A DNA stretch of 64,000 nucleotides from Parietichytrium sp. I65-24A (lineage: Eukaryota; Sar; Bigyra; Thraustochytrida; Thraustochytriidae). The stretch is taken from positions 248,001 to 312,000 of the forward strand of contig BLSF01000027.1 in the NCBI GenBank assembly GCA_012862575.1. Reading direction: 5' to 3'. Both the position numbers and the translations under genes were made by a program. Positions 13,960 to 55,859 of the stretch are shown here, one piece after another. The notes under the pieces were generated by a model. It was not told the origin of the DNA. It was given only the letters and a program-made list of their open reading frames with translations, and searched no databases. Positions within the stretch are counted from its first letter, which is position 1. Each line of letters starts with the position of its first letter.

Positions 13960-16900
13960 ATGGAAGATCCGCAGCCGGTAGGCGCGGTGGGAGCTGTGGG
14001 CGCGAGGCTGACGACGGGAGCGATGTTTTCGTCTCCGGGGCCCATGAGGAAAATGTCCGAGACTTTTGCAGTGTCGCCGTTTGTTCGATTGGACTCGACG
14101 AAATTGGGCAGGCGCCGAACCGCCGAGAAGGAGCAGCAACAGCAGCGGGGCACTGCGCGGTCGCTGGCGGCCAAGTCGGTGGTGTTTGGCCTGATCAATG
14201 GCGGCGTGATGGTGCCGACCATGGTGGGGTTTGCTTCAATCATTTACAAGGATCCGTTCTTTGTGGACCCCGAGCACAACTACCTGCCGCAGGCCATCAA
14301 ACTGGTGTTTTTGAGCTCGGCCATCCATCAGCTGTGCTTCGTCATATTCAGCACCATGCCTTTCGCGGTTGGGCAGGTCCAAGGTGAGTTATAGTGGTCC
14401 ATTTGGCAGGCGTGAAGGGACGAAACTGACGCACCGTTGTTCGTGACACCGGTCCTTGAATGATTTGCAAATGCAGACGCTGGGCTGATCTTCCTGTCAA
14501 GCATGGCTGCTACCATCGTAAGTCAAGTATGGATTGCTGTTGGCCATAGGGCTGCGTTGAGCTGACAATCTGACTCGTCTGGAACTTGTGCAGGCTGCAA
14601 ACACTCAAGCTATTCACGCTGACGAGAAAGATACCCACAAGGTGATGACCACAACTGTGGTGACACTCTCGCTCTGTACCGCTATCCTGGGATGCATGCT
14701 GGTGGTCACAGGCAAGCTGAAGCTGGCAAGCCTTGTGCAATACCTTCCGCTTCCGGTTGTCGGTGGGTACCTGGCGTTCATCGGTCTGTTCTGTGGGCTC
14801 TCCGGACTTCACCTCACCACGGGAGACAGTTTTGATACAATTGTTGACTTGAAAAATCTCTTCAATTGGCATTCTTTCAAACTCTTCTTGCCTGGTGCTC
14901 TCGCGACACTTGTTCTCTTCCTAGTGAGCAAGAAGGCAAAAGGGAACCAGTACGCTCTCCCGCTCACTCTTGTAGCGATGCCTACTGTCTTTTTCATCAT
15001 CCTCTTGATCTCTGGGAATTCGTTGGAAGATGCGCGAAAAGCTGGCTGGGTCGCTGACAAATCCGAGGTGCCGCCATTCTACCAAGTTTTTGAGCTCTTT
15101 GAATTTTCCAAGGTGGAATGGTCGGCGGCATTCCCCAGTGTCCTGCCAACCTTTTTTGCAATGTTTGCGGTTGTTGCGTTTGGCTCCTCGCTGGATGTGG
15201 CTGCGATCCAATTCGAAATCGGCAAACCTATGGATTACAACCACGAGTTGGTGACCGTTGGTTACTCGAACGTAAGTTGTCTGTTCTGAGCATCCTCTTG
15301 TCTGTCTTGAACGGCAATCATTCGTGTTGACACGTTTTCTGACACACTCCTTATCCCTTTCTCACCAATGACTTGAGTAGGCTCTAAGTGGGATCACTGG
15401 AGGTTACACAGGAAGTTACATCTTCTCTCAGACCATCTTCACCTTGCGAAATGGTATCAACAGCAGAATTTGCGGAGTTGTCGTTTCTATTGTCGAGTTG
15501 ACCTTGTTCCTGCTTCCGGTTGACTTGCTCAGCATGCTCCCAAGGTTTTTTTTTGGTTCTGTGTTGCTGTTTGTCGCTATTGAGCTTCTGCTCGAGTGGC
15601 TGGTGCTGTCATGGTTCTTGATTGACTGGAAAGAATACATTCTGGTGTGGATCACTTTTGTGTGCGTCAACCTTTGGGGCCTCGAAGCTGGCATGGCTCT
15701 CGGCATTGTCGCCAGCGCAATGCTCTTTGTGTACAGCTACAGTCGAACAAACAGCATAGAGGTGATCAAGAATGTGTCCAGTCGCGCAGTACGCAGCTTT
15801 CAGGATCGAAAAATTCTCAACAAGAATAGCGGGCGTATTGTTGCTCTCCGACTTTCTGGTTACCACTTTTTCGGGACTGTCATTCGCACAATTATTAAAG
15901 TGCAATCTCAGGTTGTTGTTTCAGATCTTGCGATCGGGCAATCGCAAAAGGCTCAAGGCGAGCAGCAATCAGGCTCTGGCGGTTCAGGTGGCGCTTGGAG
16001 TCAAGGTGGAGCAAACGATTTGGGCCTGCGTCAAGCTCAACAGCGTGCTCGTGAGCTGGAGCAGGAGGTTTCTGAGAACGAGCCGCTGTCGTCCAATTCG
16101 GTGAGGATAGACATCCCGGACAATTCCGAAGGGGCGAGCGCAAAGCGAATGACCAGACCCGCGAGATCATACAGTCAGGGTGGCAGCGCTCTCGAGGCGG
16201 GGGATCCACGATCCAGGGCCAGCTCAAACAACTCGTTTTCGAGCCCCGGAGGCAAGAGGAAGGGCAAAAAGAAGCAACTACGCAGACTTTACGAGGATAG
16301 CAAGCCAAGCGATGGAGCAGTTACCAATGAGAGCGCGGAGCTAGTCGAGACCAAATATGTTGCGCTTGACTTTTCTTACTCGTCAGGAATCGATGCAACC
16401 GCAGCCCGCGCTTGCTTTTTGACAATTTTGCAAAGCCTCAATAACCACGACATTAAACTTGTTCTCTCGGGCCTGGACGACGCAATGCGCGCAGTGCTGG
16501 TGAAAAACGGCGTTTTGAAACCCGAGCACGATCGACGTGCTGTTCAGGCAGAAGAGTATTTGCGCCTCGAGGAAGATGACGACGACAACGACGCGCATGA
16601 GCATGAGTATGCGGTCGAGTTTGCCAAGCTGGATGATGCTCTTCAGTTTTGCGAGGAAGGGATCCTCGGTGCAGTGATTCAAAAAGAGGCACATCCCGAG
16701 AGGCATGGATTTTTTAAGACTGATGCACTTCAGAAAGTCAAAGAGACTTTTTTCAAAGAGCTCGTGGTCGAACGGGGAACATTTCTTTTCAAAAAGGGGG
16801 ATGCAGTTGATGCTTTTTACGTTGTGAATTCAGGTCGTGTGGATCGCGTTGAGTCAGTGAGGCAATTCTCTGGTGGAAGCATTTTTGGCCTGGACGACTT

Positions 16901-17066
16901 CTTTGTCAAGAAGAATTATAGTTACACCGCCAAAGTGAAGAGGCATTCAGTTTTGTACAAACTGAGCAAGACTGATTTCGAAGAGTTAAAGAAAAGCGAC
17001 GCCGTACTGGCTTGCCAGCTGGAGGAAGCACTCATTTCCAACTTGATCGAAATTGGCGCTGTTTGA
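13960..17066 (+). CDS. SulP (SLC26-like) transporter with STAS and cNMP-binding domains
   Basis: Four exons: 13960-14383, 14477-14517, 14594-15271 and 15381-17066, joined by GTGAGT/GTAAGT donors and AG acceptors, giving 942 residues. The 41-base second exon is required: it restores the conserved QDAGLIFLSSMAATI stretch. Residues about 60-490 form the SulP membrane domain, with SGITGGYTGSYIFSQTIFTL at the start of exon 4. A Ser/Gly-rich linker follows, then a STAS domain (about 700-760) and a C-terminal cyclic-nucleotide-binding-like beta-roll (about 835-935, VVERGTFLFKKGDAVDAFYV). This order matches fungal vacuolar SulP proteins such as the Vsb1/SPAC24H6.11c group rather than classic sulfate permeases. 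Transport of amino acid or anion across the vacuole is therefore possible; the substrate is not settled. Convergent with PNP. Confidence 0.9.
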
Positions 17067-43164: not shown

Positions 43165-45963
43165 CTAGATGGTGGTCATGGCGAATGCTGGGACGCTCGA
43201 AACGTTGGCACGGCGAGGCCTTTCTGGCGGGGTGGTGCTCTCGTCGTTAGAGCCTGTGGATCGTTTCGGCACGAAAAACTCTTTGTCAACGTTCAAGTCG
43301 AAAGACTCTTGCCGAATGAAATCTATCGGAAGTATCGAGTGAGAGTTGTCCAAGGGCAAGTCCCGCATGATGCAAGCCAGCCGCTCTATCCCACGGAAGA
43401 GGTCGTCAAAATGAGGGATGCCATAGTCGATGTATGCGCGACCAGGTGGGATATCGAAGACATGGCACAAGTCACGTAAGAACACAGCGAGATGTACGTC
43501 GTCGGGATTCTCAAGCTCCGACTCGAAATCAACAGGCGCATTATCAGATGACTCAGATTCAACGACTACGGGCCGGGCTAGGTTCTCGCGAAGCTGGTGC
43601 TTACTTCGAAGGGCATCAAGGAAAGACAAAACGCGGTATCCAGCCATTTTTAAATGAGGCGTGAATCGTTCGATTCGACTCGTCAACTCCCACCGCTTAA
43701 TGATATTTTCCTGGGTCACCTCCTCAACAACGCCCCTTTCCTCCGGCAAGAATAGGTCCTGTATTTCGTCCGTAATTCTGTTGTACTTGTCCAACTTGTG
43801 CGTTTCGATCTTCCTGCAAACAGGCAGCTTGAGAAACTCGTCCGTCAAAAATTTGTAGTAGTTCGGACGCTGAAAATTCACTTGGCAGGAGAAAGGCTGA
43901 TTGTACAGCTCGTTGGCAGCCGCATCGTGATTCCCTTTGAGCCCTGTCTCATCTGACTTCGCGTCCACTTCCTCAGATCCAGTTCGCTCGCTGCGTTCAG
44001 GGAGAAAAGGGCCCACAACATTGACACTCACGTTTGCAACAGCAGCATCTTGCAGTGGGGTCCTGTCCGGCCGCATGCTCAATTCAGCTTCCCGTTCAGC
44101 TCGCTGCTCGCAAAGCTCCTTCGTCCAATCAAGCCTTGAAGGCTCGATGAAAAAGGTATTTTCGTCTTGCTCCCAAACAGGTTGTCTCAGTTTTCGCCTT
44201 AAACGGCGGACCGCTTGCTTGGTGAGCTCCTTCATCTTCTCCATCCCTGCCTCATTTAAGCCCTCCCTTTTACAGTCTCCATGCTCAGGGCGGACTTTCA
44301 CCTCGATGGAGTCTTCCAAAGACTCGTGCCAAGGTGGAGGCCGTTTACTGGGTACTGTTCGCCCCAAAGTGTCCTCTACTATGCCGTCAAAATTAAAACT
44401 CCTTTCTCTGTCTGCCTTCAGCTTCCGCTCCCTCTCCGCGCGTGCCAGCTTCATAGGGTGGACAAATTTCTGTGCAAAGTTGCTGATGTAGTCCTCCAAA
44501 TCCTCGGCGTTGGCTGGGTCAAGTATTCGTTGAAGGCCCTCGCCGCGCAGAAGCATGGGGCTTATACCAGCGAAAGTCTCCCCTCCATTCCACTCTAGCC
44601 GGCGAGCAATTGCGGCGTCCTTATCTAATAGAGCGTAGGCGAAAAATATCATGGCGAGAATGTTTATAGGGATAAAAGGACTCAGCGGGACACGTTTCAA
44701 AGCGCTGCCTACCCCTCGAGCTTTTGGCAAAAAGAAATGGCGCAACTCGTTTGGAAAATTGTAAATAGAGGCATACACCAGAGACACCACGGGCAAAAAC
44801 TCCTCCAGTGAGTACATATTAAGCATCCGCACGTACCGCTGCATGTGAACCCCAACGGGAGGAAGAGACACCGGTCTCTTTACTTTAATGTACCAAAACA
44901 TAGTTCTAATTCGACCTTCCAGCCGGTACCAGTGCACGGGGTTTGGCGGATGAAATATCTTGACGTTTTCATCGCTGATGCGCTTCAGAATCTCCGGGTG
45001 AATCCGAGCTGAAAAGTTTTGAATTACGGGAAGCCTTCCCGTCGCAATACTCTGGAAAAGTTCGAAAGAGTAGACTGGCTCGCCGGCAACTTCACTTGCT
45101 ACAGCTAACACGGAGATGAGTGATTCTGCATTGGGCCAGCACCTTGAAATGATGTTGCGCTCTTGTATATTCTTAGCCCTTTTCGAGAAGGTAAAGTTTC
45201 GGCGGTTATACCTAGAGCTCCCGAAAAAGTCCTCACTGGCAAATCTCATATACACCGAGAAGAGTTCGTATGCCGTGTGATAAAATTTCTTCGGGGCACG
45301 AAAAGTGAAGGTTTCAATAAACGTGAGAAGCAACTCATGAAAGTACATCCCGAAAACGGCCTTCACGGCTTCGATAGGCATTTCCGGGTCCCTTGGTGGG
45401 CCAAAAGGGGTCTTGCCCTGATAATTGGTCCTGGCCAGAGGTATTTCAACCTTCTCCCACAAAACGGAGTGCAAGTCGCCTTCTTTGACTTGCAGCGCCC
45501 TGATGTTGGCGGCCCTCGGCATCAGACGCTGTTCATATGCCCTCTCCCGCCTCAGCCGCTTCTTATCCGATATGCCTGCTTTAAACTTGGGAGGCACTGT
45601 TCCGACAGCCCCTTCCAACTGCTCTATCGTATTGCTCTCATCCTGACCACCTAGTTTGACCAGCATGTTGAGCGACTCCTTCGTCACCTTTTTGAACCCT
45701 AGCTTCTTGGCAATCATCTCGTCCGCAGTGAGCCTCAGAAACCTCACCTTGTGCGCGTACCCTTTCCTGCTGTCTCGCGCTAGCATTGCGCCTGGATCGT
45801 CTACCTCATCAATGCGCTCGGCCTCTTGCGCTACCCATCCGCACAGAGAACAGGAAATTTGCCCATCTTTGTCTTTCTCGAGTCCCGCCCCGCCGCATGT
45901 GTCGCATATGTCAGCCTGCTTCTTTTTGCGCTTCTGCGCCCTTTTTGCCAGAGATTTCAACAT
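43165..45963 (-). CDS. TAF1B/Rrn7-like RNA polymerase I initiation factor
   Basis: A 932-residue single-exon protein. The N-terminus is a TFIIB-type zinc ribbon: C20, C23, C38 and C41 in a CDTCGG...DGQISCSLCG frame. Beyond it lie two helical regions consistent with cyclin-like folds, including a GRLPVIQNF...P...F pattern near residues 310-380 that resembles the conserved core of TAF1B/Rrn7. These proteins are subunits of the SL1/core factor complex that recruits RNA polymerase I to rDNA promoters. Large low-conservation segments (about 520-640) interrupt the core. The zinc ribbon is certain; assignment to TAF1B/Rrn7 rather than another TFIIB relative rests on length, lack of a clear TFIIB B-reader, and overall pattern. 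Confidence 0.68.
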   Translation of the reverse strand: MLKSLAKRAQKRKKKQADICDTCGGAGLEKDKDGQISCSLCGWVAQEAERIDEVDDPGAMLARDSRKGYAHKVRFLRLTADEMIAKKLGFKKVTKESLNMLVKLGGQDESNTIEQLEGAVGTVPPKFKAGISDKKRLRRERAYEQRLMPRAANIRALQVKEGDLHSVLWEKVEIPLARTNYQGKTPFGPPRDPEMPIEAVKAVFGMYFHELLLTFIETFTFRAPKKFYHTAYELFSVYMRFASEDFFGSSRYNRRNFTFSKRAKNIQERNIISRCWPNAESLISVLAVASEVAGEPVYSFELFQSIATGRLPVIQNFSARIHPEILKRISDENVKIFHPPNPVHWYRLEGRIRTMFWYIKVKRPVSLPPVGVHMQRYVRMLNMYSLEEFLPVVSLVYASIYNFPNELRHFFLPKARGVGSALKRVPLSPFIPINILAMIFFAYALLDKDAAIARRLEWNGGETFAGISPMLLRGEGLQRILDPANAEDLEDYISNFAQKFVHPMKLARAERERKLKADRERSFNFDGIVEDTLGRTVPSKRPPPWHESLEDSIEVKVRPEHGDCKREGLNEAGMEKMKELTKQAVRRLRRKLRQPVWEQDENTFFIEPSRLDWTKELCEQRAEREAELSMRPDRTPLQDAAVANVSVNVVGPFLPERSERTGSEEVDAKSDETGLKGNHDAAANELYNQPFSCQVNFQRPNYYKFLTDEFLKLPVCRKIETHKLDKYNRITDEIQDLFLPEERGVVEEVTQENIIKRWELTSRIERFTPHLKMAGYRVLSFLDALRSKHQLRENLARPVVVESESSDNAPVDFESELENPDDVHLAVFLRDLCHVFDIPPGRAYIDYGIPHFDDLFRGIERLACIMRDLPLDNSHSILPIDFIRQESFDLNVDKEFFVPKRSTGSNDESTTPPERPRRANVSSVPAFAMTTI

Positions 45964-47238
45964 GGCCGCTCAACATGCAGACCTTTCACACCCCGTTCGC
46001 GTGACAACATCCACCACGTTTACAAACTGATTCACCGAGGATATGACTCCGTGACTGACTCGCGCGCTGTGCCAGATAGACTGTTCGATTGATTCGCACA
46101 GTTCACTCGATGCCCAACTTCCTATCTTCCTATGCTCAACTTTAATATCTCCGATGGGAAAGTACACTCGCTCGCGTGAGTGAGTGTTTATGTATGTATG
46201 TATGTATGTATGTATGTGTGTATGTATGTGTGTGAGTCCTTCCGAGACAGTGTCTAATACGCGCTTTTAGAATGTATGTATTCACGGAACGTATGTATCC
46301 AGCTTCCCTCACTTCTTTCTCTCTCTGTTTCGAATGCAACTTTCGAAACCTGTAAAATATGTTGCAAAGATGATGATGATGATGATGTTTTTACAAACAC
46401 ACTATGTGCGCCGCTTCTCCCCGTGAGAAACGGCGTAAAGGTAAACGAGTGACGCAACTCAGCGATTGCGCAACTCGCGTTGGTTGGCAGAGGATTGGCC
46501 GTTATTTGCCGTTGCGCGTGGGGGTCCTCGGCGAGGACACTTTTTGTTGTGAGGGGAGTGTCCTCTCCTACTCTTCACACTCCCTCTCTCGTTTGGTTGG
46601 TGGCTGGAAGTAAGACTCTCCTAGCAGAGGGTAAGCATGCCCACTCTCTTGTTCAGGTAATATAGTGGCGAAGGTGGGCTTTAGGAGAAGTAGGTAGGCC
46701 AGCTTAAAGGGAAAAGCGCGGGCGGTAAGACTGGATTATGTCTCTGTACTTCGCGAGTGCATGATGGTTCTATTGATTGTGGATAAGAAGATTGAGCCTT
46801 CGTAACAGAATAAGAGTGGCATGTTTGTTAGCAGTATGCAGTATATGAAGCATAGGGTTAAAGTGGTGAGAGTCAAACACTTTTGAAATTTGAATTTTCT
46901 GTGAAGTCTTTATCTGAATTCTGATTTCTGAAATCTGTTGTGTTTTTGACATTGGCAATGACAACAACTGTAAGAAACAACATTTGTAAAGATGGAGTGA
47001 TCGTCGCCAAAATGGCAAGTCAAGTGCCGAGACAAAGAAGCTTTGCTCAAGATCGAGTCCCCAAGTTTGTGCAGTTGGGCATAATCAGTGCAAAACTTGA
47101 TTGCGGTTCGTTTTAATGATACGATTGACATGGGATAGACTGAGAATGCCCTTCTAGCTATAGGTTTCGAACAACGACTCGAGCCAAATACAAACAGGGG
47201 GCCGTATTGGAGTATATCAATGCAGGACGTCGTTGGCT
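45964..47238. other. Intergenic spacer with TATG and GAT microsatellites
   Basis: About 1.3 kb. (TATG)n at 46188-46234 and (GAT)n at 46369-46387. No coding signal recognised. Confidence 0.55.
46188..46234. repeat. (TATG)n microsatellite
   Basis: Tetranucleotide array with two GTG interruptions, about 225 bases upstream of the Pol I factor ATG. Confidence 0.9.
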
Positions 47239-48438
47239 TTAAGAATGGAAGTCGCCCCAGTCATCGTCCAAAAGACTTGCGCCGCCGTTCGAGGAAGAAT
47301 TTTGCTGTGGCGCGGCAGAGCTTGAAGACGACGAAAACATATCGAATGGATCGTCAAGAGGAAAGCCACTCGACGCGCCAGGCGCAGAATTTGCTGGGGG
47401 CTGCAAGCTTGGCTGTGACGGTGCTTGCTGAAAATCACCAATATCACCGAATGGATCATTATCGTAAGACACGGACCCGCTCGCTGGAGCAGGCGCGGCA
47501 GGAGGGGCGCTTTGAAAATCGTCGAAACCGATGTCATCAAATCCCGTCAGAGAGTCCTCTTTGGGTTCTGTTTCGGCGGATTTAGCCGCCGGAGCTGGAG
47601 GCGAAACAGTGGGTGGTGGGGCCGATATTTCGGATGCCGATGCTGATATCTTCGAGGGAGGCGCGGATATCGCAGATGGCGGCGCAGACAGAGCAGATGG
47701 GGGACCAGCAAGCGCTGATGGGGGGGCGGACAACTTTAGCCCACCAATTCCAGCGGCTGCTGAGCTCACAGAGCTGGACTTCTTCTTCCCGCTCCTCCCG
47801 CCAATCTTGATGCTAACTTTAAAAGTTTCCCCATCCTTGAGCGATCTGTCCACCTTTGGCTGAACAGGCTCATCAGGATTGATGTCTTCTTCCTCCTCTG
47901 CAGCTTCACCTCTCGCAATACGCTTGAGCTCGTCCTCAAGCGCAGCTCGCAGGTCGAATGCGCTCTGCAACCATGCGCACCAAATCAAAGTTCTCTCTGT
48001 TAGTAAAATTCATCTCAACACGCGTTTAGCGAATTGCCCCAAACTCACCTGTCTCTCTTGAAAGCCTATGCCGATATACGCGTGCCTCTTGGACACCTCA
48101 TCCTCCACGCGAAGCACAAAGTACCTCGACGAGTCTGTGACGCTCTGCAGAAAGAAGTCCAACTTTGAATTCGGCTTAGAGGCATCTGCGTCCAGCTTTA
48201 TCGGGCAGCTCGCGAAGAGCTGCGGCTGCTTGGTCGTGTCCTCTGGCACTTGCATAACTTGCAGATACAGCTTGTCCCCTTTGCTCACCAGCCGAATCTG
48301 GCCAATCATCGCCGGTTTCTCCAAATTCCAATCCCCAGCTCGGTGGCCGCTGGACCCTTGCATGGGCGGAATCTTGTACACGTAAGCATCTGACAAACTC
48401 AGCAACAACAGTGGCGGCATGCCATCATTTTCGCTCAT
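47239..48438 (-). CDS. NECAP: NECAP-like adaptin-ear-binding endocytic protein
   Basis: Two exons: 48049-48438 and 47239-47964. The 84-base intron has donor GTGAGT and a TACTAAC branch site (opposite strand of 47999-48005), and its removal joins GFQERQ to SAFDLRAAL, the conserved end of the PHear domain. The product is 371 residues (human NECAP1 has 275). The PHear fold fills roughly residues 1-150 and binds clathrin adaptor machinery. The tail is Ala/Pro/Ser-rich and carries short linear motifs: FDDIGFDDF, DPFGDIGDF, DPFDMF and a terminal DWGDF, the last being a WxxF AP-2 ear-binding motif. It therefore probably acts in clathrin-mediated endocytosis at the plasma membrane. The first ATG is at 48438; upstream codons need a GTG start. 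Confidence 0.93.
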
Positions 48439-48852
48439 CTTCAGTGCCTTCCTTTCAACTCGACTCAACTGAGCCAAACCAAGTTCACTACACACTACAC
48501 ACTACTATCTTTCTATATATATGGGACAATGTATTCGTGCTGAATCTGTATGTCTCAAGCGTCCCCGGGGACACAGAGCGCACCCCTTCCAGCAATACTT
48601 TTAGTGTAGCTGATGAGCAATGTGATCGAGACAGCCGTGACTGGATTTCAGTACTATTCAAGAATCTCAATTCTCAATGTTGAAATCTCTTGAACATCCT
48701 TGACTCGCTGTACTCGCTGCATGGAACGTTAATCGCTTAGCAGATCTCAGCAGTCTCAGCAGAGTTACTCACTCTGTGAAGAATGAACTAATACTTGAAG
48801 ATGAAAACGGAAAAGCATACACGGTTACTAGTCCACAGTGACAATTTCTTAC

Positions 48853-48866: not shown

Positions 48867-49018
48867 TGCCTACGATAACGGTGTGTGCACGTGCGTACGT
48901 ACGTACTTAAGTGCATCAATTAACACGCCTGCACACTGCACACTGACAACCATCAACGATAAACGATAAAGGATAGACCATACACGATAGACGATAGACG
49001 CAAGAGCTGACTGAGGAC

Positions 49019-49106
49019 GTGTCTGTTTGTCTGTTTGTCAATTTGTCAATTTGTCTGTTTGTCAATTTGTCTGTTTGTCAATTTGTCTGTTTGTCAGTGT
49101 GTCTGT
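49019..49106. repeat. Octanucleotide array GTCTGTTT/GTCAATTT
   Basis: Eleven 8-base units alternating between two versions. It would translate as a repetitive hydrophobic leader from a GTG, but the ATG at 49124 fits the family, so it is probably 5' untranslated or promoter sequence. Confidence 0.88.
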
Positions 49107-49123
49107 TGGAGCTAGCTGAGGCA

Positions 49124-51169
49124 ATGTGGTTGCGAGCAGAGGTGCTGGAGGTGTCGCCAGTGCGTGCTTCGGACGAAGGCGGGTGGGCTGAGAATGGCGT
49201 GAATAGCGTCGGGGCTGTGGTCGATGGACTGCGTGGTCGTGGAATGGGCAAGCTGCTGGTGCAGCTTATGATTGCGCGGCGGGATCGTGTGGATCGGCGG
49301 GAGGACAAGTGTGGAGCGGGAAAGAAGGGGCAGGAAGAGGAGCAGCAGTGCGAAGATGCCCTCAAAGCCGCTTGGGACGAAGCTTTTGAAGAAGGGAATC
49401 TGAGCATGACGCCAGCAGAGGCTCAGGCCATGATACAGTTGTTTGGCGGGGTCGCTGCTGCCGTTGCTTCTGCAAACTCCGACCACTGCGGGTGGAACGG
49501 AAATGGCAACGATGAACTGGGCATGATGGGACGCTTTGCGCTGTTTCTGTTCCTGCTGGGTTTGAAGGAAGTTCGGACTCAGCACCAGGTGGGGAAAGAA
49601 GATCTCGTTGTGTGGCCTTCCAACGACGTGCAGGAAGGCTTGCTGGACTCTCCCGATGAACCCGCCGAATCGCCGCAGCTCAGGTCTCCGCGAACTCTTG
49701 CTCTGGACCTCCTCTCGCACGACAACGAAACCCAGCTCGAATATGTGCGAACCTATGTGCGCGACATGTGCTGGTACCTCAGTCTTTGTGAGGGGAGCTC
49801 TTCCCGGGAGCAGTTTCTGGCCACTTGGGGCGAACAGACCATATCAGTGGACCTGCTTGAGTCCCTTGCCCTCATTGTCCAGACAGACGGCCTTGTTGAA
49901 GGCACTGAACGGCCCTTGGCGGACTACTTTCAGCCCGAGCAAGACGTGTCGTGCAGTGAAATTGCTAGTGTCCTGCTCGAGCATCTCACCTTGAATAGCG
50001 CAGCAAACCCCCCTCTCTTGCGATCACCCGTCCATGGCAGTGCAGGCAATACCTTCATACCGTTTCTCCATGGGCGCAGCAACTCGGAAGAACAGACCGG
50101 GAGTGGCAACAACAACAGCAACAGCATAGGCTCTCCATCGAGCTCAAACTCGCGTGAGAGTGACTTCACCAGTGTTTACGGTGATGGTAGCGAGTCGACT
50201 TCCAAAGTAGTCTTTATTTCCAATCTCAGTAGAAAAACTGAGATCGTTGGCGATGTTGACCTTGTGGGTCGGAGCAATCAATCCGCGGACGGGCTTGGCA
50301 GTCTAGGATCGCTGGGGGAAATTAAATTCGCATCGTCGCGCGCCCCCAAATCGACAAAGACGAACTCGATGAGATCCTCATCGTCATCTTCTTCATCTTC
50401 TTCCCGCGCCTCGCATGTGACTTCGTCTTCGGGCGATAAGCCTGTGCAGCTCTCAGACAAGCTCGTTATATTTGACTGCACAAATTCCACTTTGTATGCC
50501 CTCAAACCATTTCGGTTCATTCGAATTATCGGTTGTCGGAAATGCACGATTATTCTTGGGCCGTGCGCTGGAATTCTGTCTTTGGAATACTGCTCTGATG
50601 TGCAAGTTATGGGTGTCTCTAGAAATCTATCGATCGCAAATTGCTACGACAGCAAAATCCATGTACATATGTTGAGCGGCAGCCCAATCTTGACTGGCGA
50701 TTGTCGCAATGTCGCATTCGGTCCATACAACACTTTTTATCCGAGGCTGAAGTTACACCTGGCTGCGATTGAAGAAGAAGTTCCAGGTCCGAGCGACATC
50801 TGCGAGTACACCTGGAAGACTCCAATTAATATCACTTCAAAAATTGCTACGTCGGTCTGGTATGTGCTAAGCCCTTCAGACTTTGCTCTGTTTGTCACAC
50901 CCTTTGTAGACGACGCCTGCAAAGACGTGTGCACAGAGTTACCATACCGTCTCCCGGCAGAATATGCGAATGCGGTGAAGACAAAAATTCAGAGTGTGGA
51001 AGAGATCGTGACAAAAATTTCGCAAGCTTCGCCAAAGAACGGAACTGTTGATTCACCAAAGAAAAAGCAGGACCTGGACCGAGCTGTTCAAAACTTGTTC
51101 AAAGACTGGCTCATGACGTCAGGAAACGCGCGCCAGCTTGTGGATCTAGTCAAATTCCATCAAAAGTAG
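49124..51169 (+). CDS. TBCCD1: TBCC domain-containing protein 1 (TBCCD1)
   Basis: 681 residues from the ATG at 49124. The C-terminal half matches TBCCD1 closely: a C-CAP/TBCC beta-helix with the ladder of short motifs (CRKCTIILGPCAGIL, LEYCSDVQVMGVSRNLSIAN, GPYNTFYPRLKLHL), then PSDFALFVTPF and the terminal DWLMTSGNARQLVDLV. In animals, trypanosomes and green algae (ASQ2) TBCCD1 positions centrosomes or basal bodies and links them to the nucleus and Golgi. The N-terminal domain is helical with two disordered inserts, including a Ser run near residues 420-430. The Arg finger of true tubulin cofactor C is not evident, in keeping with TBCCD1. Intronless; convergent with the WH2-repeat gene. Confidence 0.92.
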   Translation: MWLRAEVLEVSPVRASDEGGWAENGVNSVGAVVDGLRGRGMGKLLVQLMIARRDRVDRREDKCGAGKKGQEEEQQCEDALKAAWDEAFEEGNLSMTPAEAQAMIQLFGGVAAAVASANSDHCGWNGNGNDELGMMGRFALFLFLLGLKEVRTQHQVGKEDLVVWPSNDVQEGLLDSPDEPAESPQLRSPRTLALDLLSHDNETQLEYVRTYVRDMCWYLSLCEGSSSREQFLATWGEQTISVDLLESLALIVQTDGLVEGTERPLADYFQPEQDVSCSEIASVLLEHLTLNSAANPPLLRSPVHGSAGNTFIPFLHGRSNSEEQTGSGNNNSNSIGSPSSSNSRESDFTSVYGDGSESTSKVVFISNLSRKTEIVGDVDLVGRSNQSADGLGSLGSLGEIKFASSRAPKSTKTNSMRSSSSSSSSSSRASHVTSSSGDKPVQLSDKLVIFDCTNSTLYALKPFRFIRIIGCRKCTIILGPCAGILSLEYCSDVQVMGVSRNLSIANCYDSKIHVHMLSGSPILTGDCRNVAFGPYNTFYPRLKLHLAAIEEEVPGPSDICEYTWKTPINITSKIATSVWYVLSPSDFALFVTPFVDDACKDVCTELPYRLPAEYANAVKTKIQSVEEIVTKISQASPKNGTVDSPKKKQDLDRAVQNLFKDWLMTSGNARQLVDLVKFHQK

Positions 51170-51404: not shown

Positions 51405-54400
51405 TTAAAACTGAAATCGCCTCCTATACTTTGCCTCCCAGGAGGAAACTAGCTTTGCAGATCGAATGGTCACCATCGCCAGTGCATCACTCTCTCTTGT
51501 CAACATTCGCATTACTTGCTGCACTTGCTCATGAGTGCTTTCCTGAGTAACATCTTGCTCTTTAATGAACGTTCGGCAAATCTCCACTGATCTTTGCAAT
51601 CCATCCCGCTCTTTAAGTGCCTGCAAAATTGGCAATGCGTCTTCCATTTCCTCGAGCTGTTTCTGGTAGGCCAGGAGCACACCCTCTGAAAAGGGGATGG
51701 CACCTTCAAGTTTATACAAAAAGTTCAAACGATGCTTGACGCAAAGCTCCCCTAGCCCAAGCTCTTGCATCCGCCTCCACGACTGATCAAGGCTAGAGCG
51801 GTACTCTTCAATCTTGGTTGACTGTGTCTTGGCCAATTCTGCTCTCGTTCGGGCCACAGATTCTTCTATAGCTCGGTCATAGTTCTCGCGGTCTTCCTGA
51901 TATTCCAAGGACGCGATCCCTTCCAGAGTCTTCTCTCGGCTGTATAACTCTTTCTCAATAGCTGCTCGTCTCTCCTGAACCTCAATAATCTGTGCCTTCA
52001 TCTTTTTATCTTCTTCAGAAAGGCCCCCAAGCACTTGAGCGAATGCCGCATTGAATTTTCTATCCGTTGTGCGCTCGAGCTCAGCCTTCGCGTTCTTCAA
52101 GCGCAGTGAAAGTGCTTCAACGTCCTTTTGATGCTTGGTCGCCTCTTCAGCAAACTTTGTCTCCCATAAAAGTCGTTGTTTTTCAAGAGCAGGAGCCACT
52201 TTGGATTGGTACTGGAGCTCAAAACGACTTTTCTTTCTTTCCAATCCCTTTGCTAGGCGGTCGAGAAGTTCCTGCTTCTTGCGCTCGAGTGAAGCAAGAT
52301 GTTGCTGAGACGCGATGTTGTCGACCATAACCGCACACTGCAGCGCTTTGACGTGACGCTGAATCTCAGCTTCGGGTATTGGGCTTGACTCGAGCTCTGC
52401 TCGTAGATCGCCAACTTGGGATTTGAGCTCGTCTATTTGTCTCTTGTAATCTGTAACTCTGCTCTGGAGAGCATCTTGGTCGACGGCAGCAGATGTGCAA
52501 AATAGCTCCTTCTTGATGATTTCCCTCTCCATTTCAAAGCAAGAGGATTTCACACCGAGCCCAGCTTTGCGAAGACGTCCAAAGCTTGGCGGGTCCTCAG
52601 AAGCCTGCTCGAGATGTTCCGTTAGCTTTTGCAAACGCTGGAAGCCCAAATTATATCGGTTGCTCGATTTTTCAAAGTACTCCTCCACAAAAGCCTGCGT
52701 CGGGGTACTCGACAGCTTTGACAACGAATTCTGCATTCGAAGTTGTTCGGCAATGGCTTCGTTCGCCTCCAAGCGTAGTCGAGTATCAATTGTCGAGAGA
52801 ACCGTCTTGCGAAGCCTCTCCTTTTCCTGTTCTTGCCTTTCCTTCTCTTGCGTAAGCTTCCTCTCAGCTTCTCTCAATTGGCGCTCTTCCTCATCTCTCG
52901 CTTTCTGCTCCGCAGCTTCTTTCTCCAATACCAGCCTTAAAGCCTCTTCTCGCTCCTGCCTCTCCCGCTCCTCTTTTGCCTCTTGTTCCAGCTTCGCCTC
53001 GAGCAAGATATGCATTGGTTTCTCGCCTGCACTTGCAGTCGATTCATCGCCAGAGATGCCACTCTCAGACGCAATTTCGGGAACATTCTTCGGAGACTCG
53101 CTGATTAACGCAACAGACTCAGTCTCTGAGCCTTCTGAAAGCCTCCAATCCTCGTTCATGTCTGCATCAGCACTTTTTACCTCGCTATCACTCCTGGTGA
53201 CTTCTTGCTGGCTCTCTTCAACACGATCAACGGGCTCGGTTGCCGCCTCCAACTCGATAGAGGGATTTTCATCTTCTGTCAGACTTGATTTGAAGGAGCT
53301 CACAGAGTCAGACCCCGCGCTGGATGCAGTTTTAGGAGATGCAGGTTCAAAGTCCTGCTTAGAATCCCGATCAAGAGTTTCAAGAAGACCAGCCGTAGCG
53401 ACAGCCTCTTCCGCTTGGTCAACTAGTAATCGTGAGCTTGACCGAGTTTCACTAAGCCTGCGCAGTTTGCTCAGGCGTCTTTCTGGTTTCTTGGTTTCCA
53501 GATCTACCGACTTAGAAACCTCTGTTTGTGATTCATCGAAGGGCACCTCTGGTTGACATGTCTCGAAAGTCTGGGCCGAGGGTTCGTTTTCGATGGCATC
53601 AGCAGTACTTTCAGTGCCTTCTCCAAGATCCAGGTTGGCTTTCGCGCCATCTTGCAAGAATCCCTCTGGGATCGCCACTCCGTCTCTCTCCATGCGCTGA
53701 CGGACTGCGTCAGGGGGAATCCCGCATTTTGCCATATTCTGGTATTTTGCGAGAACGTCTTCTCCCGGCTCGACTTTTGCCCGTGACTCTTGAAAAACAA
53801 GTGATCTCATGGACTCGCTTTCTTTAGGCTTGTCAGACTTCTCGTCAGGCAAATCCGTCTCCTGTGGCAAATGAAGCCCCATGCGAAGATCAGTTTCGAA
53901 CAGCTCAATATCCCTGGCGCCAATTCCTTCCGTGGCCATCTTAAGCTTCACAGCTTCAAAGGGCATGCCGGCCTTGACCAAGTTTTTGAATTTTGACAAG
54001 CCTTGCAACTGAGCTTGCATTGGGGTGCCGCCCACCTCGTCATCGTCCTCATCACGAGGCGATGGAGGAATGGGGGGCGAAATCGGGGGAGGGGAAGGCT
54101 TTTCAATATTTTCGGTGCAAGTCTCCATTGGAGATTGAAGACTACTTGTGTCCAGAGAGGATACACTCTTTCGCGTCGTTCGGGGTGGGGTGGTGCTCGT
54201 GTCAGAGTTTTCCAAGGTGTCGGTTTCGGAAAGTTGATCTTGTGGTAGAAGCTCTGTGGTGCGCCCAATCTCGGACTCCGGAGAAATGGTATCGTCCCTT
54301 TCAGTGCCAACGCCGATGAAGGCGCTTGGTGTTGCCTTCGGTAGGAGAGGATCGGAAGCCATTAAAGAGGCATCGATATCTCCAACATAAGGTTCCTCAC

Positions 54401-55859
54401 TTTTCCCCGCAGAGATACCCTTACCATCGAGTTCCATTGCATTCTCAGTCGATGTGCCGTGAGACACTGGTTCGTTAATCGTTGTTGGCGAGCGCCGCCG
54501 AGAAATATCTCTCAGAAGGTCAGCTGGAGCGCCCGTCTGTGGTGAACTCTGGCTAAGGCTTTGCTCGACTAGATTCTCCTTTGGCTCTACACTTGCAGTG
54601 TGTTGAACTGGCTCGTTAATAGTTGTCGGGGATCTCTTTCTGGAGATATCTTTCAACAAATCGGCCATACCTGGTGCAGAAATAGCCGTCTTTTCGTTGA
54701 TGAAAGACGACTTTGTTGAGCTCTGCCCACTGGCAACCTCGTGCCTCACCGGTTTGTTAACAGTCGTTGGAGACCGGTTTCTTGAAATATCTTTCATCAG
54801 GTCTGCAATCCCTGGCGCGGAAATGCCTCTCCTTTCGTTAGTGGATGGAGACTCCGAATCATTCTGGACAACCTCGTGTACCACTGGCTCGTTCACGGTT
54901 GTTGGAGATCTGTTTCTTGATATATCTTTCAATAGGTCTGCAATCCCTGGCGTAGAAATGCCTCTTGTGTCGTGAGCGGAAGAAGATTTCATTCCGCTTT
55001 GAACGATTTCGTGTTTCACTGGCTCGTTGACGGTCGTTGGTGATCGATTTCGCGAAATATCTTTCAATAGGTCAGCCATTCCTGGCTCAGAAATGCCTGC
55101 GGTCTCGTATGTGGGAGATGATTTTGTTCCACTTTGAAGAATTTCGTGTTTCACTGGCTCGTTGACGGTCGTTGGTGATCGATTTCGCGAAATATCTTTC
55201 AATAGGTCAGCCATTCCTGGCTCAGAAATGCCTGCGGTCTCGTATGTGGGAGATGATTTTGTTCCACTTTGAAGAATTTCGTGTGTCACTGGTTCGTTGA
55301 CGGTCGTTGGTGATCGATTTCGTGAAATATCTTGAAGCAATGCCCGCAAATCTCCGTATGTATCAGAGCTCTTTTTTTCCTCCGGTGAACGCGGCGCAGC
55401 CTTTTGTTTCGGCGAATCGGTCTCGTTCGCGTTGAGTTCGAACAGCGGTGGTGGAGGTGGGGCAACATCATCCTCGTCATGCGCAAAGGCTTGAAAAGCA
55501 TCAGCCTCTTGCATTGCTACATCAAAAGGTGGTGGCGGAGGTGGTGGGATCGCACTATGATCAAACATATCCTCGTCATAAGGCGGCGGAGGTGGGGGCG
55601 CGAGATCATCAGCTTGAGCCATGTCATTCGCCTGTTTCCTTCTTCCCTTCCCCAGCGACATCCCGCTAAGCTTGATCTTCTTTTTCTTTGGCTTCAGTTT
55701 CTGACCATCCTTTCCAAACGATTTAGGCATGGGGGGAAGCGGGGGAGGGGCCGCTGCAGCATCAACGAACTTTGCGGGCTTCCCGGTGTCATTTCTCACG
55801 CTCCTGAGGCCCCAGTCGTCTTTCGACTCCTCTTCCATGACCATCCGCGCAGCGTCCAT
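51405..55859 (-). CDS. Poly-proline, WH2-like repeat and coiled-coil protein (putative actin-assembly factor)
   Basis: A 1484-residue single-exon protein not assignable to a named family. Residues about 35-150 hold three poly-proline runs of the profilin/SH3-binding type. About 170-465 hold seven copies of a roughly 40-45-residue repeat with core ADLLKDISRNRSPTTVNEP; the LLxDI plus downstream pattern resembles the actin-binding WH2 motif, though its usual LKKV is replaced by SPTTV. Two segments, near 618-645 (KFKNLVKAGMPFEAVKLKM) and 701-727 (KYQNMAKCGIPPDAVRQRM), match the CCDC53/WASHC3-type motif. Acidic low-complexity sequence follows and from about 940 to 1450 a long coiled coil. Combined, this suggests an oligomeric actin nucleator or regulator. 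WH2 assignment is by eye. Confidence 0.72.
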   Translation of the reverse strand: MDAARMVMEEESKDDWGLRSVRNDTGKPAKFVDAAAAPPPLPPMPKSFGKDGQKLKPKKKKIKLSGMSLGKGRRKQANDMAQADDLAPPPPPPYDEDMFDHSAIPPPPPPPFDVAMQEADAFQAFAHDEDDVAPPPPPLFELNANETDSPKQKAAPRSPEEKKSSDTYGDLRALLQDISRNRSPTTVNEPVTHEILQSGTKSSPTYETAGISEPGMADLLKDISRNRSPTTVNEPVKHEILQSGTKSSPTYETAGISEPGMADLLKDISRNRSPTTVNEPVKHEIVQSGMKSSSAHDTRGISTPGIADLLKDISRNRSPTTVNEPVVHEVVQNDSESPSTNERRGISAPGIADLMKDISRNRSPTTVNKPVRHEVASGQSSTKSSFINEKTAISAPGMADLLKDISRKRSPTTINEPVQHTASVEPKENLVEQSLSQSSPQTGAPADLLRDISRRRSPTTINEPVSHGTSTENAMELDGKGISAGKSEEPYVGDIDASLMASDPLLPKATPSAFIGVGTERDDTISPESEIGRTTELLPQDQLSETDTLENSDTSTTPPRTTRKSVSSLDTSSLQSPMETCTENIEKPSPPPISPPIPPSPRDEDDDEVGGTPMQAQLQGLSKFKNLVKAGMPFEAVKLKMATEGIGARDIELFETDLRMGLHLPQETDLPDEKSDKPKESESMRSLVFQESRAKVEPGEDVLAKYQNMAKCGIPPDAVRQRMERDGVAIPEGFLQDGAKANLDLGEGTESTADAIENEPSAQTFETCQPEVPFDESQTEVSKSVDLETKKPERRLSKLRRLSETRSSSRLLVDQAEEAVATAGLLETLDRDSKQDFEPASPKTASSAGSDSVSSFKSSLTEDENPSIELEAATEPVDRVEESQQEVTRSDSEVKSADADMNEDWRLSEGSETESVALISESPKNVPEIASESGISGDESTASAGEKPMHILLEAKLEQEAKEERERQEREEALRLVLEKEAAEQKARDEEERQLREAERKLTQEKERQEQEKERLRKTVLSTIDTRLRLEANEAIAEQLRMQNSLSKLSSTPTQAFVEEYFEKSSNRYNLGFQRLQKLTEHLEQASEDPPSFGRLRKAGLGVKSSCFEMEREIIKKELFCTSAAVDQDALQSRVTDYKRQIDELKSQVGDLRAELESSPIPEAEIQRHVKALQCAVMVDNIASQQHLASLERKKQELLDRLAKGLERKKSRFELQYQSKVAPALEKQRLLWETKFAEEATKHQKDVEALSLRLKNAKAELERTTDRKFNAAFAQVLGGLSEEDKKMKAQIIEVQERRAAIEKELYSREKTLEGIASLEYQEDRENYDRAIEESVARTRAELAKTQSTKIEEYRSSLDQSWRRMQELGLGELCVKHRLNFLYKLEGAIPFSEGVLLAYQKQLEEMEDALPILQALKERDGLQRSVEICRTFIKEQDVTQESTHEQVQQVMRMLTRESDALAMVTIRSAKLVSSWEAKYRRRFQF
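55006..55275. repeat. Perfect 135-bp tandem duplication inside WH2-repeat gene
   Basis: Bases 55006-55140 and 55141-55275 are identical. The unit is exactly 45 codons and equals one protein repeat. Flanking repeats have diverged, so this copy arose recently or was homogenised. Confidence 0.95.

Follow-up and report, generated by a model that had tools for sequence, protein, structure and literature searches.

A seven-repeat protein with WASHC3-type motifs from a thraustochytrid, probably a multivalent actin- or endosome-system scaffold

On the minus strand of the window, the whole 64,000-nucleotide stretch of Parietichytrium sp. I65-24A DNA analysed here, a single-exon coding sequence (P0001, 51405..55859) encodes a protein of 1484 residues in which seven short repeats are joined to proline runs, two CCDC53/WASHC3-type motifs and a long, predicted helical C-terminal part. 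The repeats very probably form a functional docking array, and the protein as a whole is likely a multivalent scaffold belonging to the actin or the endosome system. The best explanation, with a probability of roughly 0.35, is a multivalent, largely disordered actin-system scaffold whose repeats would dock actin by a WH2-like helix. A place in the actin system as such is somewhat favoured, and actin binding by the repeats themselves is a tentative proposal. Membership of the repeats in the WH2 family is not supported by the sequence comparisons, and a WH2-like mode of action is possibly theirs.

The open frame begins with an ATG in the context AACATGG (A at −3, G at +4) and closes with TAA, and on the plus strand opposite, the three frames hold no stop-free run longer than 368 codons. 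From the N-terminus, a short acidic start is followed by a basic stretch, the proline runs and the seven repeats; beyond these lie a Ser/Thr-rich stretch, two GMP/GIP motifs, an acidic, Ser-rich stretch and the helical C-terminal part, which ends in SSWEAKYRRRFQF. The proline-rich N-terminal part (residues 35–140, 55440..55757, minus strand) contains PPPPPP, PPPPPPP and PPPPP at residues 88–93, 105–111 and 134–138, the runs already noticed in the sequence-only reading, as well as two PPP runs. Three profilin-type matches to [AI]PPPPP are found in this part by pattern search, and a profilin role is suggested for the proline runs. Five Trp residues are present in the protein, two of which stand in acidic [DE]DW settings at residues 16 (SKDDWG, ~55814, minus strand) and 905 (MNEDWR, ~53147, minus strand), loosely similar to the acidic Trp motifs that bind Arp2/3.

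The cores of the repeats, all on the minus strand, are situated at residues 172–193 (repeat 1, RALLQDISRNRSPTTVNEPVTH, 55281..55346), 217–238 (repeat 2, 55146..55211), 262–283 (repeat 3, 55011..55076), 307–328 (repeat 4, 54876..54941), 352–373 (repeat 5, 54741..54806), 399–420 (repeat 6, 54600..54665) and 446–467 (repeat 7, 54459..54524). Repeat 5 has LM in place of LL and NKP in place of NEP. All seven were located by motif search and repeat alignment, with repeat 2 also modelled in structure. All seven copies claimed from the letters are thus present within residues 172–467, spaced by 135 nt apart from the last two spacings, which are of 141 nt. Fourteen of the 45 columns are invariant in all seven (L13, D16, I17, S18, R19, R21, S22, P23, T24, T25, N27, P29, V30 and H32). 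Repeats 2 and 3 are a recent pair with 93% DNA identity over 135 nt, and the identity of distant pairs goes down to 41–48% over the same length.

The repeat cores are under strong purifying selection. The dN/dS is ~0.09 in the core (seven repeats) versus ~0.79 in the linker (six of the seven repeats), both ratios being rough because synonymous sites are near saturation. Across all seven repeats, pN/pS is 0.16 in the helix, 0.19 in the tail and 0.84–0.90 in the linkers, and the contrast with the linkers stands in repeats 3–7 (helix 0.06, tail 0.20, linkers 0.74–0.97) and equally in repeats 1–5 (helix 0.24, tail 0.12, linkers 0.60–0.98). Both halves of the core are constrained, and which of them is tighter varies with the repeats chosen. 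The SPTTVNEP half, earlier singled out as far better conserved than the linkers, is indeed constrained relative to them, and so is the helix half.

The identity of the repeats as WH2 motifs, as originally proposed, is not borne out. At E 10, PF02205 (WH2) is listed neither for the full-length protein (Pfam scan) nor for the seven-repeat array or the four of seven repeats scanned singly. With the same profile (family cut-off 23.1 bits), all five WH2 controls are listed, including WIP at 49.7 bits, MIM at 39.5, N-WASP at 36.1 and a Spire stretch at 19.7, the last lying under the cut-off. The C-terminal L-[KR]-[KR]-[VTA] is missing from all seven repeats, its place being taken by PTT[VI], and L[KRQ][KR][VTAS] occurs in the protein only at residues 1016, 1096 and 1421, all outside the repeats. 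Since WIP with its tail altered to PTTV still reaches 27.2 bits against PF02205, the loss of LKKV alone does not account for the repeats' lack of a match, and other residues differ as well. The HMM-HMM comparison that had been proposed as a check gives, by hhalign, a probability of 2.9% (E 0.016 for that single pair) over nine helix columns only. With a profile built from eight WH2s, six repeats score between 1.3 and 2.3 bits, with repeat 5 at −2.8, compared with 33.1 for MIM and 11.8 for Spire on the same scale; between 18 and 633 of 2100 shuffles, 1589 of which were given any score, equal or exceed the individual repeats. In addition, the WASP-family pattern given in PMC3298513 fails in the repeats after LL, after Ile and at L-[KR]-[KR], although WIP itself also fails that pattern at the residue after Ile.

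What likeness there is lies in the helix. The loose helix pattern [VILM]-[LM]-x-[ASDEQ]-[IL] matches all seven repeats and one further site, at residue 1411. Upon gap-free scoring of 1463 stretches of the protein against the WH2s of WIP, N-WASP and WAVE2, the helix halves of the seven repeats take ranks 1–7 against WIP and their tail halves ranks 1103–1321; the corresponding ranks are 9–94 and 497–746 against N-WASP, and 2–129 and 331–588 against WAVE2. The likeness is therefore nearest to WIP and located in the helix. When all 22 residues are scored, no repeat does as well against any of the three WH2s as a stretch of the helical tail at residue 1194, and against WIP the repeats are also outscored by stretches at residues 59 and 3; the WH2 resemblance is thus within the reach of chance. 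The repeat helix is strongly amphipathic, with only 0.2–4.1% of shuffles as high in the four repeats tested, versus 43–79% for three known WH2 helices over the same ten columns. These three WH2 helices are thus not strongly amphipathic, and the test lends WH2 no support.

An AlphaFold2 model of one repeat, with the seven repeats as alignment, contains a single helix at positions 10–19 of the repeat (MADLLKDISR) and nothing after it, with a mean pLDDT of 67.3 overall and 78 for residues 11–20. This low-confidence arrangement of a helix and then an extended tail would correspond to the WH2 layout, though many short motifs could give the same. PMC6770570 and PMC8102491 describe that layout as a helix followed by an extended part, and the latter specifies a helix in the actin cleft together with LKKV. 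According to PMC8102491, D is among the residues found ahead of the conserved Ile in WH2, and in Las17 it is the weaker-binding choice (S554D, 472 nM).

The partner of the repeats is about equally likely to be actin or a phospho-reader. With a phospho-reader, the repeats would form a docking array for a partner other than actin, and docking would depend on phosphorylation: a basophilic or proline-directed kinase would modify the RxRSPTT tail, which a phospho-binding protein would then recognise; the helix would be part of the interface, and the protein would be a cytoskeletal or endosomal scaffold whose repeats do not touch actin. R-x-R-S-P-T-T is present in all seven repeats, and RxRxx[ST], a basophilic kinase pattern, occurs seven times in the protein, each time within a repeat, which makes phospho-control a natural guess and lends some support to the phospho-regulation mooted in the sequence-only reading. 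The tail, which is constrained about as much as the helix, also carries no WH2 resemblance. However, the helix has invariant residues of its own (L13, D16 and I17), none of which a phospho-site alone would require. A precedent of a different kind exists in Las17, where, according to PMC8102491, phosphorylation in the WH2 helix cuts actin affinity from 34 to 8000 nM; the candidate sites of the repeats, known from sequence, lie instead in the tail. Descent from WH2, which would make the protein a seven-WH2 nucleator or sequestering protein as first proposed, is unlikely. LLxDI at the spacing of WIP, Val or Ile where the last residue of LKKV sits, the helix ranks against WIP and the helix-then-extended model all point towards it, but PF02205 is absent at E 10 with working controls, LKKV is missing from every copy, and the WASP-family pattern of PMC3298513 fails at three places.

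Slightly less probable still is an endocytic scaffold whose ADLL stretches would be clathrin- or adaptor-binding DLL motifs. Arrays of DLL motifs are carried by AP180, DLL occurs in five of the seven repeats, and a DUF1681 gene lies ~3 kb off, but such neighbourhood means little in eukaryotes. This reading is lowered because DLL is not kept in repeat 1 (RALLQD) and repeat 5 (DLMKD), D-I-S-R and R-S-P-T-T being kept instead; moreover, the clathrin-box, DP[FW] and NPF patterns have no match in the protein. As for an unrelated family, whose appearance in a profile search was to count against the WH2 proposal, one did formally turn up: PF22242 (6PGD_like) scores 31.2 bits on the seven-repeat array (54441–55415, minus strand) against a cut-off of 27. 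Its highest-scoring stretch spans 33 of the 98 positions of the profile, inside one repeat, and there is no match in four single repeats or, at E 10, in the whole protein. A score above the cut-off on the array and on none of the four single repeats is read as chance summed over repeats, and a 6PGD-like enzyme domain, split up among the repeats, is scarcely credible. A PF22242 annotation of the array is likely false, arising from the repeated helices; a CinA_KH match to the repeats was likewise taken as summed chance.

The WASHC3-type motifs, also proposed from the letters, are well supported at the sequence level for the C-terminal part of the family only. Motif 1 (residues 620–650, 53910..54002, minus strand), with FKNLVKAGMPFEAVKLKMATEGIG, reaches 20.1 bits against PF10152 when taken alone, under the cut-off of 24.6, and motif 2 (residues 703–731, LAKYQNMAKCGIPPDAVRQRMERDGVAIP, 53667..53753, minus strand) reaches 25.0 bits, over it; the K-x-G-[MI]-P motifs themselves are found at residues 629 and 711, as described. 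PF10152 gives 32 bits on the whole protein and 44.3 bits (E 3.2e-11, two stretches) on residues 600–760. An approximate human WASHC3 segment matches profile positions 112–147, the same end as the motifs, and none of 2000 shuffles reaches the score of either motif against it. The best stretch in residues 600–760 starts at profile position 92 of 147, and the whole-protein match starts at position 37, running through a Ser/Thr/Pro-rich stretch. The N-terminal part of the family is a trimerising helix, and this part is unmatched in the scan of residues 600–760. The protein is not a WASHC3 subunit, because the match starts at profile position 92 and both its size and its order of parts differ. Compared by sequence with the PDB, the human WASHC3 segment matched no solved chain, and among the literature matches listed, no title or abstract start is about a WASHC3-type segment. 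CCDC53 is, according to PMC8047104, the smallest WASH subunit and a free trimer before assembly, and PF10152 appears as differentially abundant in Albugo secretomes in PMC7217449.

The C-terminal part (residues 957–1484, 51408..52991, minus strand), assessed by a single-sequence model and a charge and heptad test, had been taken for a 500-residue coiled coil. It is predicted to be almost wholly helical (mean pLDDT 59.6), but its six segments give no clear heptad signal in what is a crude test, the best, around residues ~1200–1290, being equalled by 47 of 500 shuffles. The first helix of the model, at residues 958–1049, is one charged helix with a pLDDT of 65–86 in nine ten-residue blocks; residues ~950–1040 are 53% charged, with a heptad score matched by 475 of 500 shuffles, and look more like a single long helix. 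Given this charged single-helix look and the missing heptad signal, oligomerisation is a guess.

Around this gene, the window contains a TBCC domain gene (PF07986, 80.2 bits, Pfam; 48998–51166, plus strand), which we take to be TBCCD1-like and whose end lies ~240 nt from the stop of the 1484-residue frame, tail to tail. The DUF1681 gene, presumably of the NECAP type, occupies two adjacent frames (47242–48501, minus strand) scoring 103.3 bits in one and 24.7 bits, which is under the cut-off, in the other; the two together cover most of DUF1681, and an intron or frame change therefore probably lies between them. Further away, sulfate permease, STAS and cyclic-nucleotide-binding domains are found by Pfam in two adjacent frames (14561–17063, plus strand), probably one transporter gene, and an open frame of 934 residues (43168–45969, minus strand) bears a couple of CxxC pairs close to the start and matches nothing in Pfam at 0.001.

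For the preferred scaffold with actin-docking repeats, each repeat would place its folded amphipathic helix (M/I-A-D-L-L-K-D-I) on its own copy of a partner common to all seven; the likeliest site is the hydrophobic cleft of an actin monomer, where WH2 helices also sit. The tail R-x-R-S-P-T-T-[VI]-N-E-P would then lie extended where WH2 has LKKV; lacking the basic pair, it would have little affinity, and even less once S/T in RxRSPTT is phosphorylated. The array could thereby keep monomers in a low-affinity store that can be switched, while the proline runs would carry profilin-actin, and the WASHC3-type motifs and the helical tail may tie it to an endosomal or cortical site of actin assembly. 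The complete version of this proposal, a new class of actin-monomer array in which seven WH2-like helices have the LKKV clamp swapped for a kinase-addressable SPTT tail, filament assembly is set by the number of phosphorylated units among the seven, and the whole is coupled in one chain to WASHC3-type motifs, is rather doubtful. If the repeats do bind actin, the WH2 clamp LKKV would be tradable for a phospho-controlled tail, and a seven-unit array of such a kind would be possible in a eukaryote. If they do not, the protein is still a case of WASHC3-type segments that are not in the WASH subunit and share a chain with a docking motif in seven copies, for whose partner a 22-residue peptide would be a direct bait.

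No family met in the Pfam, PDB, viral and prokaryotic comparisons has this order of parts, and among the literature matches listed, no title or abstract start describes it. No relatives turned up in viral contigs, with either the whole protein or the repeat alignment as query, nor in prokaryotic-genome or phage collections, all of these being collections free of eukaryotes; eukaryotic orthologues may well already have entries as uncharacterised proteins. In the PDB, the full-length sequence has three matches (E 0.93 to 8.9), to a designed protein, a V-ATPase subunit and Abl interactor 2, which is proline-rich, and one repeat matches two designed proteins (E 1.2 and 1.5).

Several known systems share single parts with the protein. 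As in the formins, which are FH1-FH2 proteins, proline runs precede a long helical part, but a Pfam scan at E 10 matches no FH2 domain anywhere along the chain. The acidic C-terminal stretch with Trp of a VCA is absent. With a C region profile built from two approximate sequences, the repeats give no signal (1492 of the 2100 shuffles being given any score), and the rest of the protein, scored as one whole sequence, has no reported match. With CCDC53/WASHC3, the protein has in common a segment of the GVPxxAxxxKM type, from where the profile ends C-terminally, the pair lying above the cut-off; unlike this smallest WASH subunit, it has 1484 residues, two copies of the segment and other modules flanking them, with the rest of the PF10152 profile unmatched in residues 600–760. 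Compared with the multi-WH2 proteins Spire and Cobl, it likewise has short motifs in tandem in a disordered stretch. Its seven copies without LKKV differ from the one to four WH2 motifs that proteins of that family can contain according to PMC6770570. Set against the WH2 of WIP in PDB entry 2a41, the repeats have PTTV or PTTI in place of LKKT, seven copies instead of one and no PF02205 match. The WIP/verprolin family nevertheless shares with the protein a proline-rich context and, in the repeat helix LLxDIS, the residues L, L, D, I and S (LM in repeat 5).
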